Shown piece after piece: positions 36,326 to 45,225 of a DNA stretch of 45,225 nucleotides. The stretch spans positions 1 through 45,225 of the forward strand of contig JAGBRZ010000152.1 in assembly GCA_017632155.1 (NCBI GenBank), in the 5' to 3' direction. This DNA is from Clostridia bacterium. GTDB taxonomy: Bacteria > Bacillota_A > Clostridia > Oscillospirales > CAG-272. How positions within the stretch are numbered: position 1 is the first letter of the stretch; every line of letters starts with the position of its first letter. The notes under the pieces were generated by a model. The model did not search any database and was not told the origin of the DNA. It was given only the letters and a program-made list of their open reading frames with translations. The translations under genes and the position numbers were made by a program.

Positions 36326-36517
36326 ATGGAGATCGATTGGAAACGCAAACTTACATCTCGCAAGCTCTGGATGGCTGTCGCAGGCTTCGTAACAGGTCTC
36401 GTGGCTCTATTCGCTGGCGGTGCTACTGAGGTCAACATTACGGGAGCGGTTATGTCTCTCGGATCTGTTGTTGCCTACATTGTTGGCGAAGGTCTCACAG
36501 ATATGGCTAACAAGTGA
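36326..36517 (+). CDS. Holin
   Basis: 63 residues from ATG 36326 behind AAGGAGGTGG. A basic start (WKRKLTSRKLW) is followed by two hydrophobic segments (AVAGFVTGLVALFAGG and AVMSLGSVVAYIVG) joined by a short polar turn, and the end is GEGLTDMANK. Size, topology and position before the endolysin fit a class II holin that forms lesions in the membrane. Confidence 0.8.
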   Translation: MEIDWKRKLTSRKLWMAVAGFVTGLVALFAGGATEVNITGAVMSLGSVVAYIVGEGLTDMANK

Positions 36518-36524
36518 ATACCGA

Positions 36525-36548
36525 AGGGGGCTGTACCAACAGCCCCCT
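36525..36548 (+). terminator. Hairpin after holin
   Basis: GGGGGCTGT (36526-36534) pairs with ACAGCCCCC (36539-36547) around ACCA. The following ATCTCTTC is only moderately T-rich, so termination is probably partial. Confidence 0.5.
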
Positions 36549-36571
36549 ATCTCTTCAAAGGATGTGTTACT

Positions 36572-36964
36572 ATGACAATCAAAGCCTATTCCCGAGTAAA
36601 GGATGGCAACAAAAAACTATCTACTAATTTCCGAGTGCGAGAGTTCGCTTGCTTGGATGGTTCAGATCCTATTTTTATAGATACGGAGTTAGTGAATGTT
36701 TTACAGAAAATACGGACACATTTTGGTAAGGCGGTTACAATCACTTCCGCATACCGCACCCCACCGAGGAACAAGTCTGTGGGTGGCACAGCCTACTCTA
36801 TGCACCTCTACGGAATGGCTGCGGATATTAAGATAGCATCTGTATCACCGAAGAAGGTAGCCGAATATGCCGAGACACTTCTCCCAAGTAGAGGAGGGAT
36901 CGGCGTCTATGAAACCTTTACTCATATCGATGTGAGGGCTACAAAAGCGCGTTGGAAGGGGTAA
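36572..36964 (+). CDS. Endolysin, peptidase M15A family
   Basis: 130 residues from ATG 36572. It is a single catalytic domain with FRVREFACLDG, TITSAYRTPPRN, then SMHLYGMAADI (zinc His and Asp) and GGIGVYETFTHIDVR (second His). It would cleave the peptide part of peptidoglycan. No separate cell-wall-binding domain is present, as usual for small M15A lysins. It is the last gene of the late operon. No clear terminator follows directly. Confidence 0.88.
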   Translation: MTIKAYSRVKDGNKKLSTNFRVREFACLDGSDPIFIDTELVNVLQKIRTHFGKAVTITSAYRTPPRNKSVGGTAYSMHLYGMAADIKIASVSPKKVAEYAETLLPSRGGIGVYETFTHIDVRATKARWKG

Positions 36965-36989
36965 AATCCCCTTCCCTGCCCCAAAATTA

Positions 36990-37004
36990 CAAATAGTTTT
37001 ATAT
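36990..37004 (+). promoter_or_regulatory. CAAATAGTT motif, copy 1
   Basis: CAAATAGTTTTATAT resembles CAAATAGTTATATG found at 40880 and 42211. All three lie in non-coding DNA close to promoters or ribosome sites. It is possibly an operator. Confidence 0.35.
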
Positions 37005-37030
37005 TTTTTGAGAAATTTTGTCGTACCCTC

Positions 37031-37059
37031 TTGCAAAATGGACGACAATATGTTATAAT
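37031..37059 (+). promoter_or_regulatory. Extended -10 promoter of the rightward RNA
   Basis: TTGCAA at 37031-37036, 17 bases, then TATAAT at 37054-37059 preceded by TGT. The same arrangement, TTGCAAAAT plus TGnTATAAT, occurs before the cro-like gene at 40845. Transcription would start near 37066. Confidence 0.8.
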
Positions 37060-37065
37060 GGTTGC

Positions 37066-37297
37066 AATAACAACTAATGAAAAACGCCATCGGACGAATC
37101 CGACAGCGTTTATCAATAAGCGACATCCGCAAAGGTGCTGGTAACACCGATGCGGAACTTAGGATCATCGCACTGATCCGGCAGCGCCTTTGCGCATATT
37201 GCTTATTTGCAATTATTATATCACATAGTAGTGCAAATGTCAATAGGAAATGTAAAAATTTCGCCGATCAGAGTGGTAATTCTGATCGGCTATTTTT
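37066..37297 (+). ncRNA. Structured non-coding RNA upstream of rep
   Basis: About 230 nt from a strong promoter to an intrinsic terminator. Predicted stems are: hairpin 37082-37111 (AAACGC/GCGTTT and TCGGA/TCCGA with symmetric CA/CA loop and CGAA cap); closing stem AATAAGC (37115-37121) with GCTTATT (37201-37207); 13-bp stem 37128-37140 with 37182-37194 (one G-U pair); inner hairpin GGATCA/TGATCC at 37162-37179. A 76-codon frame exists inside but has no ribosome site. It may be the first part of the rep leader, stopped by attenuation, or an independent RNA. Confidence 0.6.
37254..37297. terminator. Bidirectional terminator shared by two convergent RNAs
   Basis: GCCGATCAGA (37263-37272) pairs perfectly with TCTGATCGGC (37281-37290). 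T-runs follow on the + strand (37293-37297) and on the - strand (37254-37258). Confidence 0.85.
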
Positions 37298-37484
37298 GTT
37301 GTTATGATCGAGTAGCGCCAACTACTCGTTAAATTCGACCGCAAGACTCAACCTGTAACGATCGGTTCGCCAAAACCGAGGGTTACAACCACAACCAAAA
37401 CACGCAACAAAACAAAAATCACGCGCGACGACGTTTCGAAAGAAACCGAGGTCGGGGGTGCGGCGAAGCCTTGTCTATTTTTGT
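37254..37484 (-). ncRNA. Predicted antisense RNA controlling rep, with twin UUGGCG loops
   Basis: From a perfect promoter (37491-37519) the - strand transcript runs about 230 nt to the shared terminator. It contains a GTTTC/GAAAC hairpin (37433-37446) and a GU-rich linker. The hairpin at 37354-37387 (GTAAC plus TCGGTT stems) and the hairpin at 37309-37328 (CGAGTAG stem) both end in the loop UUGGCG. That hexamer contains the YUNR U-turn known from kissing loops of antisense-controlled plasmid replicons. The RNA is antisense to the presumed rep leader, so it is a good candidate for a copy-number and incompatibility determinant. Confidence 0.65.
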
Positions 37485-37490
37485 GATGAT

Positions 37491-37519
37491 ATTATATCAT
37501 ACATTCGGGTTGTTGTCAA
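37491..37519 (-). promoter_or_regulatory. Perfect-consensus leftward promoter of the antisense RNA
   Basis: On the - strand TTGACA (37514-37519), 17 bases, TATAAT (37491-37496). It points away from rep and reads into its leader region. No leftward gene follows, which argues for an RNA product. Confidence 0.85.
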
Positions 37520-37573
37520 GTGTATTTTCATATTTTTTCAACAAAATGTTAAAAAGAACAGGAGGTGTACGGA

Positions 37574-39076
37574 ATGAATATAGTAGCGGCCCCGCTGAAA
37601 CAGCGAAATCATAAGCACATAAACAGATCCATCGAGCAGTGGCTTGATATTCATTTCGGCGACACTTCCTTTAACGGTCGAGTAATTATCGGTCGTAGGA
37701 AGAACCAAGGTGGTATCTATACTATGAGCGCTCGACCACTGACAGAACTTACCCCATACATAAAAATGGTTCACGCTTCTACGCGGTTGGACTACTACAT
37801 TACCGCAAACACCGTATCGGGCGTCAATCGCCTAAAAGACGAGTTGTTTGGCTTACAGAACATCGTAATTGACGTCGATTGTCACGATGCGAAGCACATT
37901 CATAGTGTTTCTGCCCTCGTACAGGCGTTTATTTGGCGTTCTAAGCGCGATCTATGGGACACAGGTATAATTCCTACCCCCAACTCGATTGTGCGCACAG
38001 GACGTGGCGTACAGCTTTGGTGGGCTATTGTTCCCTGCTACGGTGGTAGCAACTACGAAACGAGTCGTTATCACTACGATAAGATCAAAAATACTATGAT
38101 GGATCACATCGAAGCCCTACTCAGCGAATACCGCGACGAGTTAGACGGACTCGATGTAGACCGTGGCGCCAGCAGTAACCCTGTTGGTTATTTCCGTTTG
38201 CCTTGTACTTACAATACGACGGCAAAGTGTTTCAGTACGTTGGAGATCCTGCATTCCAAACGCCACGACCAACGGGAACTTACTAAGATTGCGAACCCAG
38301 GCGTCGAAACAAGCTCGGAAGTAGCTCGTGGTAGCTCCCGGTACGTTCCAATGCAAGAGACTGATAGAACCGTAATTCGAAACTTCGAATCTACGGGAGT
38401 TCGTCGTGTGCTACAACTCATTAAACTTCGTAACCTCCGAAACAATGAAGTTGGCTCCGAAATGCGAGATCACTTCAATTTCTCCGTATACAATGCCCTA
38501 CGAATGTCTTTCGAGCATCCTACGGCTATGGCTCGTCTCAGAGCGTTCAACAGTGGATTCAAGAAGCCTATGAACGAGCGAGAACTCGAAAACTGCATTA
38601 GTTCCGCGCAAGAAAAGGGTGGTTACAAGTATAGTAACGCAAAACTCGTAGAGCTATTAAGTATTACCCCAGAAGAACAAGTCATAATAGGTCTATTCCC
38701 TACCCTCGGTCGTCGTTGCTCGTGGAAGCATTCTAAGCAGAATGCAAGCCGTGACGAGGCTCGTAGGGCGCTCAGAGAGGATCGAGATCACCGAATAATG
38801 GAACTCATCGAACAAGGTGTGTCCCAAGCAGAGACGGCGCGAATACTTGGTATCAGCAAAAACACAGTAGGTAGTGTGGTTAAGAAAAACCGCGAAACCA
38901 CCGAGATAGAGCCTACGATCGTCGAAGTTGCTACCGAGTACAGCAGTCGTCCCAATTTTGGTGCTATATATGTACTGAATAATACAGCCCCCGCCGAACC
39001 GCCTACTTTGGTGACAAATCCAAAATTAGGAATACAGGAGGGCTTATTGGTGTTGGAGATGGAAGACACGTCATGA
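37574..39076 (+). CDS. rep: Plasmid-type replication initiator with AEP-primase-like domain
   Basis: 500 residues from ATG 37574, seven bases after AGGAGGT. The N-terminal 230 residues fit the archaeo-eukaryotic primase fold found in Firmicutes plasmid Rep proteins: IVIDVDCH (Asp100, Asp102), RTGRGVQLWW (141-150), then D196-RGASSNPVGYFRLP. A middle segment YKYSNAKLVELLSITPEEQ is also plasmid-Rep-like. The C-terminal SQAETARILGISKNTVGSVV (417-436) is a helix-turn-helix. It should start replication of the circular prophage. ParA and a ribbon-helix-helix protein follow, as in plasmids, and an antisense RNA overlaps its leader. Confidence 0.78.
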   Translation: MNIVAAPLKQRNHKHINRSIEQWLDIHFGDTSFNGRVIIGRRKNQGGIYTMSARPLTELTPYIKMVHASTRLDYYITANTVSGVNRLKDELFGLQNIVIDVDCHDAKHIHSVSALVQAFIWRSKRDLWDTGIIPTPNSIVRTGRGVQLWWAIVPCYGGSNYETSRYHYDKIKNTMMDHIEALLSEYRDELDGLDVDRGASSNPVGYFRLPCTYNTTAKCFSTLEILHSKRHDQRELTKIANPGVETSSEVARGSSRYVPMQETDRTVIRNFESTGVRRVLQLIKLRNLRNNEVGSEMRDHFNFSVYNALRMSFEHPTAMARLRAFNSGFKKPMNERELENCISSAQEKGGYKYSNAKLVELLSITPEEQVIIGLFPTLGRRCSWKHSKQNASRDEARRALREDRDHRIMELIEQGVSQAETARILGISKNTVGSVVKKNRETTEIEPTIVEVATEYSSRPNFGAIYVLNNTAPAEPPTLVTNPKLGIQEGLLVLEMEDTS

Positions 39077-39199
39077 CGGAGAGGCGGGGGCTATTCCCTA
39101 CCCTGTTTTCTGTGGATTCTAATATGATTTAGGATATATTATGCGGCATATTATGAAATATGTTATAAAATATATTAGAAAGTTTGGTTATTCTGCCGA

Positions 39200-39229
39200 T
39201 TGACAGGTGTATGGGAATTGTTGTAAAAT
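39200..39229 (+). promoter_or_regulatory. Probable par operon promoter
   Basis: TTGACA at 39200-39205, 18 bases, TAAAAT at 39224-39229. The transcript would carry a leader of about 170 bases containing the AT-rich repeats. Confidence 0.55.
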
Positions 39230-39306
39230 AATATATGAGGTAACATAATACATAATATATTAGGTTTTATATTAGGATTTGTATGAGGAAATCTAACAGC
39301 AAGCAT

Positions 39307-39382
39307 ATTATTTGATATAATAGAAAATATGTTATATGATATAATACAAGTTATATGATGTAATAGGTTATATACTATAAAA
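39307..39382. repeat. Direct repeats of GTTATATGATATAATA type (candidate parS/parC)
   Basis: Copies: ATTATTTGATATAATA (39307), GTTATATGATATAATA (39331), GTTATATGATGTAATA (39350), GTTATATACTATAAAA (39367). Further weak copies lie between 39121 and 39260. Tandem AT-rich sites directly before parA, with a ribbon-helix-helix partner, match the layout of type Ib partition systems. Confidence 0.6.
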
Positions 39383-39405
39383 TAAAATATATAAGGAGTG
39401 AGAAA

Positions 39406-40200
39406 ATGAAAGTTATAGCCTTTGGTACACTTAAAGGTGGTACAGGAAAGACCACAGTAGCATTCAATGTCGGGGGAATCTTGGCAGAAGAACACAAGGT
39501 TTTGTTCTTAGACATTGATCCACAGTCAAATCTCTCGGATAATGTGGGTGTTGATACCACAGACCAAGACGGTGCTACCATCCGAGACGTGCTGAACGAC
39601 CCGTATAACACGTCTGCAAACGATGTAATTACCAAAACACCGATGTGGCAGCTTCCGAACTTGGATATCATTTCGAGCCACATCCGACTGACAGCAACAG
39701 AATTACAACTTGCTGCCATCGCAGGACGCGAACGCATCTTGCAGAAATGGATGGATCGCAATAGGGATGTGTTGAAGCAATATGATTACATTATTATCGA
39801 CACCAATCCGTCTATGGGAATTGTGAATCAAAACGCGTTTATGTCTGCGGATAAAATCATTTTGGTATCCGACGTTTCAAAAAAGGCTATCCAGGGAGCG
39901 CAGTTGTTTACATATCTCTGGGGAGAAGTCTGTGAGAATACCGATGTGGAGGATAAAACGAGTGCGCTGATCCTCAATAACTGTGACAGGCGTATTGGTC
40001 TCACAAGAGACATTAAGGAGTACTACAAGGACGATGAGGATTTCGGTAAGATTGTCCTCGATAGTACGATTCCGTCCAGAGTAGATATCAAGAACACCGA
40101 GATAAAGTATTTACCCATAAACTTGACCGCACCCGATTCTGTATCGTGTGAGGCGTTTAGGGCTGTTGTGTCGGAATTAAAAGAAAGGAAGGTATTGTAA
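39406..40200 (+). CDS. parA: ParA-type partition ATPase
   Basis: 264 residues from ATG 39406 behind AAGGAG. A deviant Walker A KGGTGKTT (10-17), FLDIDPQSNLSDN (motif A') and YIIIDTNPSMG (Walker B) identify the ParA/MinD family. There is no N-terminal DNA-binding domain, so it is a small ParA of type Ib. It would segregate prophage-plasmid copies together with the protein at 40200, whose start overlaps the parA stop by one base. Confidence 0.88.
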   Translation: MKVIAFGTLKGGTGKTTVAFNVGGILAEEHKVLFLDIDPQSNLSDNVGVDTTDQDGATIRDVLNDPYNTSANDVITKTPMWQLPNLDIISSHIRLTATELQLAAIAGRERILQKWMDRNRDVLKQYDYIIIDTNPSMGIVNQNAFMSADKIILVSDVSKKAIQGAQLFTYLWGEVCENTDVEDKTSALILNNCDRRIGLTRDIKEYYKDDEDFGKIVLDSTIPSRVDIKNTEIKYLPINLTAPDSVSCEAFRAVVSELKERKVL

Positions 40201-40502
40201 TGGCAAACCCATTCAAAGATGCGGAAAAGAAAAAGAAGGTTGCTCCCGGTGGGGAAAAGGAACCCCAAAAGGAGGAAGTTGTTGTCGTTGATCCACCGAA
40301 AGTAGAAACCCCAAAAGTAGAAACACCGAAGCAAGATCCTCCCGAAAATCCTCTCGCAGGGATGATCGAGCCGAAGCCAGAAGGGAAAGCATACAGTGTT
40401 TATCTCAGTGCAGAGGCGAACGATAAGCTCGAAAAGTTGGCAAAGCAGAACAAATGTAGCAAAAGTAAGGCTCTTGATGCGTTGCTACGTAGTCTGACGT
40501 AA
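40200..40502 (+). CDS. Ribbon-helix-helix partition partner (ParB-like)
   Basis: 100 residues. A lysine-rich start and a Pro/Glu/Val-rich disordered middle (ETPKVETPKQDPPENP) lead to a C-terminal ribbon-helix-helix: AYSVYLSAEANDKLEKLAKQ, then CSKSKALDALLRSL. Translation is coupled to parA. In type Ib systems such a protein binds the centromere repeats, stimulates ParA and represses the operon. The role here is inferred from position and fold. Confidence 0.78.
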   Translation: MANPFKDAEKKKKVAPGGEKEPQKEEVVVVDPPKVETPKVETPKQDPPENPLAGMIEPKPEGKAYSVYLSAEANDKLEKLAKQNKCSKSKALDALLRSLT

Positions 40503-40507
40503 AAAAG

Positions 40508-40545
40508 AAAACCTCGTCGGTTGCATCCGACGGGGTTTTTATTTA
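40508..40545. terminator. Terminator between the par operon and the repressor
   Basis: AAACCTCGTCGG pairs with CCGACGGGGTTT (one G-U pair) and a T-run follows. The A-rich flank lets it also stop the leftward repressor transcript. Confidence 0.85.
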
Positions 40546-40776
40546 TTTGAGATAGGATGAAATGTATTCGTTGAGATCCAAATTAAGTATCTGACATATT
40601 TTTAGCGCCAAAACAAGGTCTACGTTTCTGAGACCTCTTTCTATATGAGAATAATAAACTTGGGATATACCGAGTAGTCGAGCCATATCCGTTTGATATA
40701 GGTTCGTTTTCTCCCGTTTCTCTCGGATGAATTTGCCGAAATCGGCAAGACACTCGTTGTTATCTATAGTCTTCAT
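40543..40776 (-). CDS. XRE-family repressor (CI-like)
   Basis: 77 residues from the ATG at 40776 behind AGGAGG. It is almost only a helix-turn-helix domain: FIREKREKTNLYQTDMARLL, GISQVYYSHIERGLRNVDLV and a final ALKICQILNLDLNEYI. There is no cleavable C-terminal domain, so induction would not use RecA-driven self-cleavage. It is divergent from the cro-like gene, with a 129-base gap between the two start codons. It probably keeps the replication operon silent in the lysogen. Confidence 0.82.
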   Translation of the reverse strand: MKTIDNNECLADFGKFIREKREKTNLYQTDMARLLGISQVYYSHIERGLRNVDLVLALKICQILNLDLNEYISSYLK

Positions 40777-44300: not shown

Positions 44301-45225
44301 CTATCAACGCGACCTGTTTTACAAAACCTCTGAGGCATTCAAAAACGGGTTCCGTCGTCCACTGATAGTCGCCCCCTGTGGGGCGGGGAAATCATATCTC
44401 TTTGCGGAGATGATTCGTCATACTCGCGGTGAGGTTCTTGTTTTAACGCATCGACAAGAACTCAAACAACAGCACGAGGAATTACTACATAATCTCAACA
44501 TCGATAACGCAAGGGTTGCTATGGTACTTACCGAGTATAATCGGCTCGGCAAATATCCTACGCCCGCTATGATTGTGACCGATGAGGCACATCTGTCGAG
44601 GAGCAATTCTTGGCAAAAGGTGATTGAATATTATGATACTTACACCGTGGGGTTTACCGCCACTCCGATCCGATTGGATGGTAAACCTCTCGGCGACATC
44701 TTCGATGCACTTATCGAGGGTGTGGATGTGCGATGGCTTATCGAAAACAGACGCCTCGCACCTTACGAATACTATGCTCCTATGACCGTGGATACGTCGG
44801 GTCTACGCATCGTATGCGGTGACTACGTTGTCTCGGATTTGGAGCAGTTGATGAATGAGAGGGCTGTATATGGGAATGTCATTGAAGCGTATCGCCGATT
44901 TGCTCCGGGGGAACGGGCTATCGCCTATTGTGTTTCAGTCCGACACGCCCAACATACAGCCGAGGCTTTTAATTCCGTTGGAATACGGGCAGAAGTGCTT
45001 TCTTCTGGAACTCCACCAAAGCAACGATCGCGGGTTATGGAGGATTTCAGAGCTGGAAAACTCACCGTACTCTGCAACGTGGGTATTATCGCAGAAGGAA
45101 TCTCAATCGACGAAGTAACGTGCTGTATGCTACTCCGTCCGACTGATTCCGTGGCTCTCGGGATTCAACAAATGATGCGTTGTATGAGATACCTACCGGG
45201 TAAAACCGCCAAAATTTTGGATTTC
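44290..45225 (+). CDS. SF2 DEAD/DEAH-type helicase, N-terminal part (continues at base 1)
   Basis: Starts at ATG 44290 and runs off the window. The last 141 bases repeat bases 1-141, where the frame continues to 534. Domain 1 has LRDYQRDL (Q-motif-like), APCGAGKS (Walker A), VTDEAH (DEAH) and FTATP (motif III). Domain 2 starts near ERAIAYCVSVRHAQ and includes EVLSSGTP. It resembles phage helicases related to UvsW/ComFA that remodel forks or recombination intermediates. It overlaps the preceding gene by 11 bases. Confidence 0.9.
   Translation, partial: MLRDYQRDLFYKTSEAFKNGFRRPLIVAPCGAGKSYLFAEMIRHTRGEVLVLTHRQELKQQHEELLHNLNIDNARVAMVLTEYNRLGKYPTPAMIVTDEAHLSRSNSWQKVIEYYDTYTVGFTATPIRLDGKPLGDIFDALIEGVDVRWLIENRRLAPYEYYAPMTVDTSGLRIVCGDYVVSDLEQLMNERAVYGNVIEAYRRFAPGERAIAYCVSVRHAQHTAEAFNSVGIRAEVLSSGTPPKQRSRVMEDFRAGKLTVLCNVGIIAEGISIDEVTCCMLLRPTDSVALGIQQMMRCMRYLPGKTAKILDF
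45085..45225. repeat. Right copy of the exact 141-bp end repeat
   Basis: Identical to bases 1-141 and in the same reading frame of the helicase gene. Removing one copy gives a circle of 45,084 bp. Confidence 0.95.

Follow-up and report, generated by a model that had tools for sequence, protein, structure and literature searches.

Antisense control of copy number is classical for plasmids, and little of the kind was found in the literature searched for phages that persist as plasmids. The 45,225-nt stretch of Clostridia DNA analysed here, hereafter the window, raises the question of whether a phage replication gene lies under such control, and by what mechanism. Because its ends repeat each other over 141 nt (direct repeat, 1-141 and 45085-45225), the window is probably a complete circular molecule. 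Its genes for an SPP1-like portal, a D5-like primase/helicase, a resolvase-type recombinase, an endolysin, a ParA partition ATPase (39406-40200, plus strand) and a 500-aa replication protein, Rep (37574-39076, plus strand, with the Shine-Dalgarno sequence GGAGGT at 37561-37566), fit a phage-plasmid. The module discussed below sits within the 610-nt gap that separates the endolysin gene from rep.

Rep matches at least 270 proteins and PHROG 9432 (E 3e-8), with helix-turn-helix matches near its C-terminus that fall below the Pfam cut-offs. Distant matches (21.5-27.1%) occur in 27 plasmid records, seven of them annotated as replication proteins; tblastn against the INPHARED phages found none, and at E <= 1e-20 Rep was detected, again distantly, in three and two genomes of samples of 394 and 391. 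A blastn search with window positions 36500-40500 returned nothing from plasmids and only the endolysin, in three records, from phages.

The original prediction was of an antisense RNA (RNA A) opposite the rep leader, driven by a perfect promoter, devoid of genes and carrying two hairpins with unlike stems and one loop, and most of this stands. The promoter PA (TTGACA-17-TATAAT, 37491-37519, minus strand) matches all 12 consensus positions and is one of three perfect sites in the window when both strands are scanned at 16-18-nt spacing. The putative transcript (37254-37484, minus strand) would start about 7 nt past the -10 box and contains short mechanical ORFs and no convincing gene. Both hairpins, hp2 (37309-37328, 7 bp) and hp1 (37354-37387), display CGCCAA on the plus strand and UUGGCG on the minus strand, and they form the sole loop-sharing pair among the 32 hairpins of the window with a stem of at least 6 bp and a 6-nt loop. 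Chance was rejected as their source: when 37254-37574 was shuffled 5000 times with dinucleotides kept, a repeated loop never arose, and neither did this loop. The minus strand of RNA A folds with z = -3.08. The predicted end near 37254 fared less well: the 3' end is uncertain, the hairpin at 37263-37290 makes a better terminator on the plus strand, and a scan of the window found no clear minus-strand terminator.

RNA A is not alone in the gap, which also holds features absent from the original prediction, namely a second antisense RNA (RNA B) and, on the plus strand, two terminators, each with a candidate antiterminator. Another perfect promoter on the minus strand, PB (TTGACA-17-TATAAT, 12/12, 37215-37243), lies 276 nt beyond PA and would drive an RNA B of about 134 nt (37075-37208, minus strand, ends approximate) that folds with z = -6.66 and contains a terminator-like hairpin followed by a U-run (37083-37111). 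The proposed start of the replication transcript is P+ (TTGCAA-17-TATAAT, 10/12, 37031-37059, plus strand). Downstream, the strand AT1 (CTGATCCGGC, 37173-37182) is a candidate antiterminator, able to pair with the 5' arm of the intrinsic terminator T1 (37263-37290, tail TATTTTTG). A second antiterminator helix joins AT2 (CACGCGCGAC, 37420-37429) to GTCGGGGGTG (37451-37460), which overlaps the 5' arm of T3; this terminator-like hairpin (GGTGCGGC-GAA-GCCTTGTC, U-tract TATTTTT) lies, all on the plus strand, in an element of conserved sequence at 37456-37482.

We compared 13 modules, drawn from the window and IMG/VR phage contigs (window, L001, two in L002, L032, L036, L038, L041, L027, L044, L068, L049 and L060). 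Pattern scans of IMG/VR yielded only two loci with a close Rep, L001 (62%) and L002 (55%). A pattern taken from the conserved 5'-end sequence of RNA A, and thus independent of the loops, gave 20 loci, with further ones showing the same hairpin series, and two RNA-B patterns gave 28 and 18. Loci that the RNA-B model failed to match, or matched only in part (23-39 of 106 positions), were dropped as non-modules (L029, L030, L031, L033, L035, L037, L039, L042 and, among RNA-B pattern hits, L045-L048, L050-L059, L061-L064, L065-L067 and L070). Repeats identical over 650 nt were collapsed (L028 and L034 into L027, L040 into L038, L043 into L036, L069 into L068); L009 equals L001 and L012 equals L002, and L008, L010, L011 and L019 were excluded as non-relatives of Rep. 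Searches with blastn found no phage relative of the L036 module plus RNA or of the L038 module, and among plasmids only a ParA match to the former, in one. The RNA-B model found nothing at E <= 1e-4 in the 394 and 391 genomes, an empty result of little weight.

Apart from the exceptions given here and below, the modules share one order: a weak P+, RNA B, T1, the shared-loop hairpins of RNA A, T3 and then a cargo. In L002 two of them stand in tandem (1790-2290 and 2417-2991), the first without cargo of its own. The best PA site matches at least 10 of 12 consensus positions in every module, as does the best PB site in all except L002 module 2 (8), which thus has no good PB; the best site in the P+ interval of the other 12 modules reaches only 8-10. 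Comparison thus supports the predicted antisense RNA opposite a replication leader, with a conserved promoter, pairing that is kept and loops that are shared. In five of the 13 (both L002 modules, L032, L041 and L068) the RNA A terminator on the minus strand is a hairpin bearing the module's own loop; L001, L036 and L038 have one of another kind, and L027, L044, L049 and L060, like the window, gave none in the scan.

Seven loop types occur over the 13 modules. Read on the plus strand, the loop is CGCCAA in the window, L001 and L032, TTGGCG in L002 module 2, L036 and L038, CTGCCA in L002 module 1, CTGGCA in L068, CGGCAA in L041, CTGGTAA in L044 and TTGGTAG in L049 and L060, and L027 mixes two related loops (CTGGTAA twice, TTGGTAG once). 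In nine modules one loop recurs in two or three hairpins whose stems are fully paired or G.U paired; tolerating one A.C mismatch brings in L002 module 1 and L068, and L049 has one clean shared-loop hairpin. Hexamers of the modules' loops are flanked by at least 4 bp at 28 of 31 sites, against 137 of 2477 other positions, a test that is partly circular for loop types read by eye and not so for CGCCAA and TTGGCG. Because loop strings were read by eye first and listed afterwards, hairpins with other loops may be missed; perfect hairpins without the listed loops also occur in both L002 modules, L036, L038, L027, L049 and L060. Relatives had been expected to show varying stems and constant loops: the stems do vary with pairing kept, whereas the loops differ between modules and do so jointly within each. 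L002 module 1 and L068 have nearly equal stems and differ in a central loop base in both hairpins: the two loops changed together.

Loop identity within a module may reflect multivalent kissing or a shared partner, and transcription attenuation by itself gives no reason for it. Protein sponges are typically single RNAs in which several hairpins carry one loop on unrelated stems. Were the loops bound by a protein, as in a CsrB-like sponge or by a regulator coded in the phage, rather than kissing loops, their identity would be directly explained. We think this very doubtful, given the seven loop types, the different loops in two modules of one phage (L002) and a UUGG that is sense or antisense depending on the module; UUGGCG is antisense in the window, L001 and L032, and sense in L002 module 2, L036 and L038. 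Nor do non-Watson-Crick pairs point to one strand: they favour plus in hairpins of L027, L044, L049 and L060, and minus in the terminator hairpins of L002 module 1 and L068. YUNR is the U-turn rule for recognition loops, and the fit to it noted originally for the window extends to 11 of the 13 modules, where one strand reads UUGG or CUGG; L002 module 1 and L041 fit only with the closing pair opened. Kissing between loops of RNA B and RNA A on one strand was judged inconsistent by eye and rejected.

The hexamer had been named as the kissing loop of IncI/IncB/IncFII-type systems. In ColIb-P9, UUGGCG is indeed given as the loop motif of the target RNA (PMC10724649, ref. 19). The loop hexamer is common to the window and the group of IncIalpha ColIb-P9 Inc RNA/repZ, IncB, IncK and IncL/M, on the target there and on the antisense RNA in the window. 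The IncI-type mechanism is not supported. Its pseudoknot was rejected for want of a loop-complementary site near the rep start: in 11 of 13 modules neither leader nor cargo contains an exact loop complement, the window and L001 have one only inside rep (+477 and +444), and among rep modules a 5-nt complement near the start occurs in L002 module 2 only. Rfam models of known plasmid antisense families gave no match, with hits far below gathering scores, and no Rfam family of any kind reached its gathering score in the window.

These observations bear on whether RNA A, though antisense to the leader, blocks translation of rep rather than transcription, as in R1, ColIb-P9 and pSK41. The order of antisense, leader and rep would be the same, and the L002 Shine-Dalgarno region, where the 5-nt complement lies, can pair with the loop and stem of a leader hairpin. 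Pairing partners of the Shine-Dalgarno sequence differ among the window, L001 and L002, however, and its occlusion was rejected as a common mechanism. Exact loop complements are mostly missing, as above, and nine modules have no rep to translate, since a conserved large RNA takes its place in a stretch whose longest plus-strand ATG ORF is 35-133 aa. We regard a translational block as unlikely.

Attenuation of transcription, the reading that we prefer, draws support from AT2. The window helix has 8 bp and two mismatches (-13.3 kcal/mol), and its antiterminator, or pre-emptor, strand is complementary to the 5' arm of T3, as in attenuators of the pT181/pIP501 type. Across 11 modules (L049 and L060, with another hairpin at T3, were left out), native upstream sequence pairs with the T3 5' arm at -13.9 kcal/mol against -9.6 when swapped between modules, and none of 20000 permutations equalled this, within a 45-nt upstream limit that was chosen after the position of the helix had been seen and with relatedness among modules ignored. 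The contrast holds without L027, L038 and L068 (0/5000 permutations), and control arms shifted by +11, +22 and +33 gave no signal, a shift of -60 little (805/5000) and one of -80 a weak signal (219/5000). With 110 nt upstream the contrast is smaller (-14.0 vs -10.9), and foreign upstream sequence pairs better in five of the 11.

In the seven of 13 modules in which hp1 is nested inside the AT2 helix, 94.3% of cells are paired and seven cells are changed on both sides; covariation is 0.400 against 0.164 in shuffles, none of 500 of which reached it, and one of the ten pairs fails in three of the seven. The helix is stronger on the plus strand (-13.9 vs -8.4), and with the upstream strand held, T3 pairing rises in 10 of 11 modules, the window being the exception (0.36 to 0.34), which speaks against the reading, as does the very weak T3 of the window. 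T3 itself is weak, at -2.7 to -5.8 kcal/mol: in the window -2.7 on both strands, elsewhere mostly -5.8 on plus (with G.U pairs) against -4.4 on minus. At this place L049 and L060 form another hairpin, which is stronger (-14.8 and -15.6). The U-tract after T3 is deficient in three of 13 modules (absent in L002 module 1, displaced in L002 module 2, poor in L036). All 49 counted cells of the T3 stem pair, with one C.U position omitted; because paired cells vary little, covariation says little for T3.

A second control point is suggested by RNA B and T1. The RNA-B sequence model R1 matches all 13 modules, nine of which built it. T1, with its U-tail on the plus strand, is more stable on that strand than on the minus in 12 modules including the window, L001 being the exception. 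Native AT1-T1 pairing beats swapped pairing, with 11 of 20000 permutations equal or better over the 13 modules, relatedness again ignored. In the window AT1 (-14.1 kcal/mol) is weaker than T1 (-19.5), and since T1 lies between P+ and rep it would halt most transcripts unless relieved. A sub-hairpin of RNA B, GGTGCTGRYAACACC within CCGC/GCGG, is also found alone in L053 (2121), L055 (8050), L057, L062 and L064; in L053 and L055 it directly precedes other phage genes, as judged by eye.

The sequences show the layout, the promoter matches, the hairpins with their shared loops, the covariation of AT2 and the swap of cargo; from these we infer that the RNAs are made and kiss, that T3 terminates and that copy number is the output. 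We propose, with a probability of roughly 0.6, antisense-controlled transcription attenuation of the replicon, similar to that of pT181 and pIP501 and using several identical U-turn kissing loops. Positions 37031-37575 would be the control leader of the replicon used in the plasmid state of a phage-plasmid. The plus transcript would begin at P+, and rep, or in relatives a large RNA, would be made only if polymerase passed T1 and T3. In a free leader AT2 would hold the 5' arm of T3 and transcription would continue; RNA A, made from PA just beyond T3, would kiss complementary hairpins of the nascent leader through its U-turn loops, AT2 would be lost, T3 could form and transcription would stop. 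More copies would mean more RNA A, and copy number would be held. Because RNA A covers T3, a full duplex would prevent T3 from forming, and inhibition would have to come from the early kissing stage. RNA B may act likewise at T1.

In the pT181 replicon the attenuator is single and Rep is of the rolling-circle kind. The module resembles it in that an antiterminator strand competes for the 5' arm of a terminator-like hairpin just upstream of rep, as described for the pT181 pre-emptor and the terminator-like stem-loop before repC (PMC5703833), and differs in its loops and leader and in having two terminators and two antisense RNAs. In pIP501 and pAMbeta1 (Inc18), RNAIII is reported to be antisense to a long rep leader and to cause premature termination of repR, with a U-turn loop in the target and two loop pairs needed (PMC4981023, PMC5703833). 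The antisense RNA opposite a long rep leader, and the attenuation proposed here, are alike. Unlike pIP501 as there described, our modules have identical loops in two or three hairpins, a second antisense RNA, a second terminator, a PA beyond T3 such that RNA A covers T3, no Cop gene next to the leader (in the window, a candidate regulator of HTH_3 type is encoded at 40543-40776) and a cargo that may be an RNA. Countertranscript attenuation is thus already known from pT181 and pIP501 (PMC5703833, PMC4981023); no description of such a module was found in the literature searched, which comprised titles, the openings of abstracts and few subscription papers.

The module is not tied to Rep, a point absent from the original prediction. 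Rep is the cargo in the window, L001 and L002 module 2, and the same RNA switch seems, on sequence comparison, to be kept in relatives where one of two large structured RNAs takes the place of the replication gene before ParA. Type I (about 500 nt, 84% mean column identity) occurs on the minus strand in L032 (3500-4000) and L038 (2280-2800). Type II (66% identity) lies on the minus strand in L036 (7029-7468), L041 (5002-5381) and L060 (8489-8915) and on the plus strand in L027 (5940-6420), L044 (1602-2080), L049 (6545-7000) and L068 (3088-3515); 32 of its 85 predicted pairs show kept two-sided change, counted without a shuffled control. These RNAs are large and structured like ROOL and GOLLD, described as large ornate bacterial RNAs (PMC12286853), and differ in that no Rfam model matched at gathering score in the seven loci scanned (L032, L036, L038, L040, L043, L041 and L049); at E <= 1 there were only weak, unrelated matches, in L032 and L036.

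A Rep profile matched two of 16 records (L001 and L002), and of the 14 others three are 44-45 kb and the rest shorter. ParA identity to the window is 80% in L001, which has rep, 78% in L027 and L044, which have the type II RNA, and 26-50% in the others, and the contig of L044 (G777, searched over 6900-44345) matches 23 of the 44 window ORFs of at least 100 aa. Rep and RNA thus swap at one site in related phages. Between rep and ParA in the window, 39117-39397 is AT-rich and contains degenerate repeats, most of whose spacings are multiples of 12 nt, which makes it a candidate partition site or origin; comparable AT-rich stretches lie upstream of ParA in L032 and L068.

Among plasmid prophages of mycobacteriophages with parABS, the replicon is reported to be served by a RepA-like protein in some and by a noncoding RNA region in others (PMC7157519), and our cargoes show the same alternative. 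A shared antisense leader module does not figure in that description, on which, rather than on sequence, the comparison rests. By analogy, the large RNA may be a replication initiator. The existence of such RNA-based origins (PMC7157519), and an RNA cargo that occupies the place of rep before ParA, would also suit a ColE1-like arrangement in which all members use the plus-strand elements as primer or origin of replication, both antisense RNAs target priming and rep is accessory. The rep frame, however, is open in the window, L001 and L002, with a Shine-Dalgarno sequence in the window, and we give this arrangement the slimmest chance of the explanations weighed here. Returning to attenuation, a wider form of it is tentative, possible at somewhat less than even odds: a cargo-independent phage-plasmid switch in which two antisense RNAs act on two serial attenuators, with one concerted kissing-loop specificity code per module (two in L002) and a cargo that is either Rep or an undescribed structured RNA of about 400-500 nt replacing Rep as initiator.

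A leader that precedes a Rep gene in some phages and a large RNA in others makes RNA-based prophage replication testable outside mycobacteriophages. The jointly changing loops offer a natural series of specificity codes, which bears on how incompatibility groups arise and may be useful for orthogonal antisense attenuators.

Traces of such loops appear farther afield. Among distant-Rep loci, L003-L007, L013 and L015-L018 have no hairpin of at least 5 bp with a TTGGCG or CGCCAA loop and L014 has one. By eye, the Geobacillus plasmids L022, L023 and L026 lack such loops, the Bacillales plasmids L020, L021 and L024, whose Rep is distant, have TTGG in loops of the leader's plus strand (TTGGTAG, TTTGGCCG), and the Paraclostridium bifermentans plasmid L025 has CGCCAA within a large loop. 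The L014 hairpin (162-177; Rep 31%) has a CGCCAA loop and is terminator-like on the minus strand, and L016, a second replicon of the same genome, has the same stem with the loop CTGCAA (both by eye), a difference that resembles an incompatibility switch.
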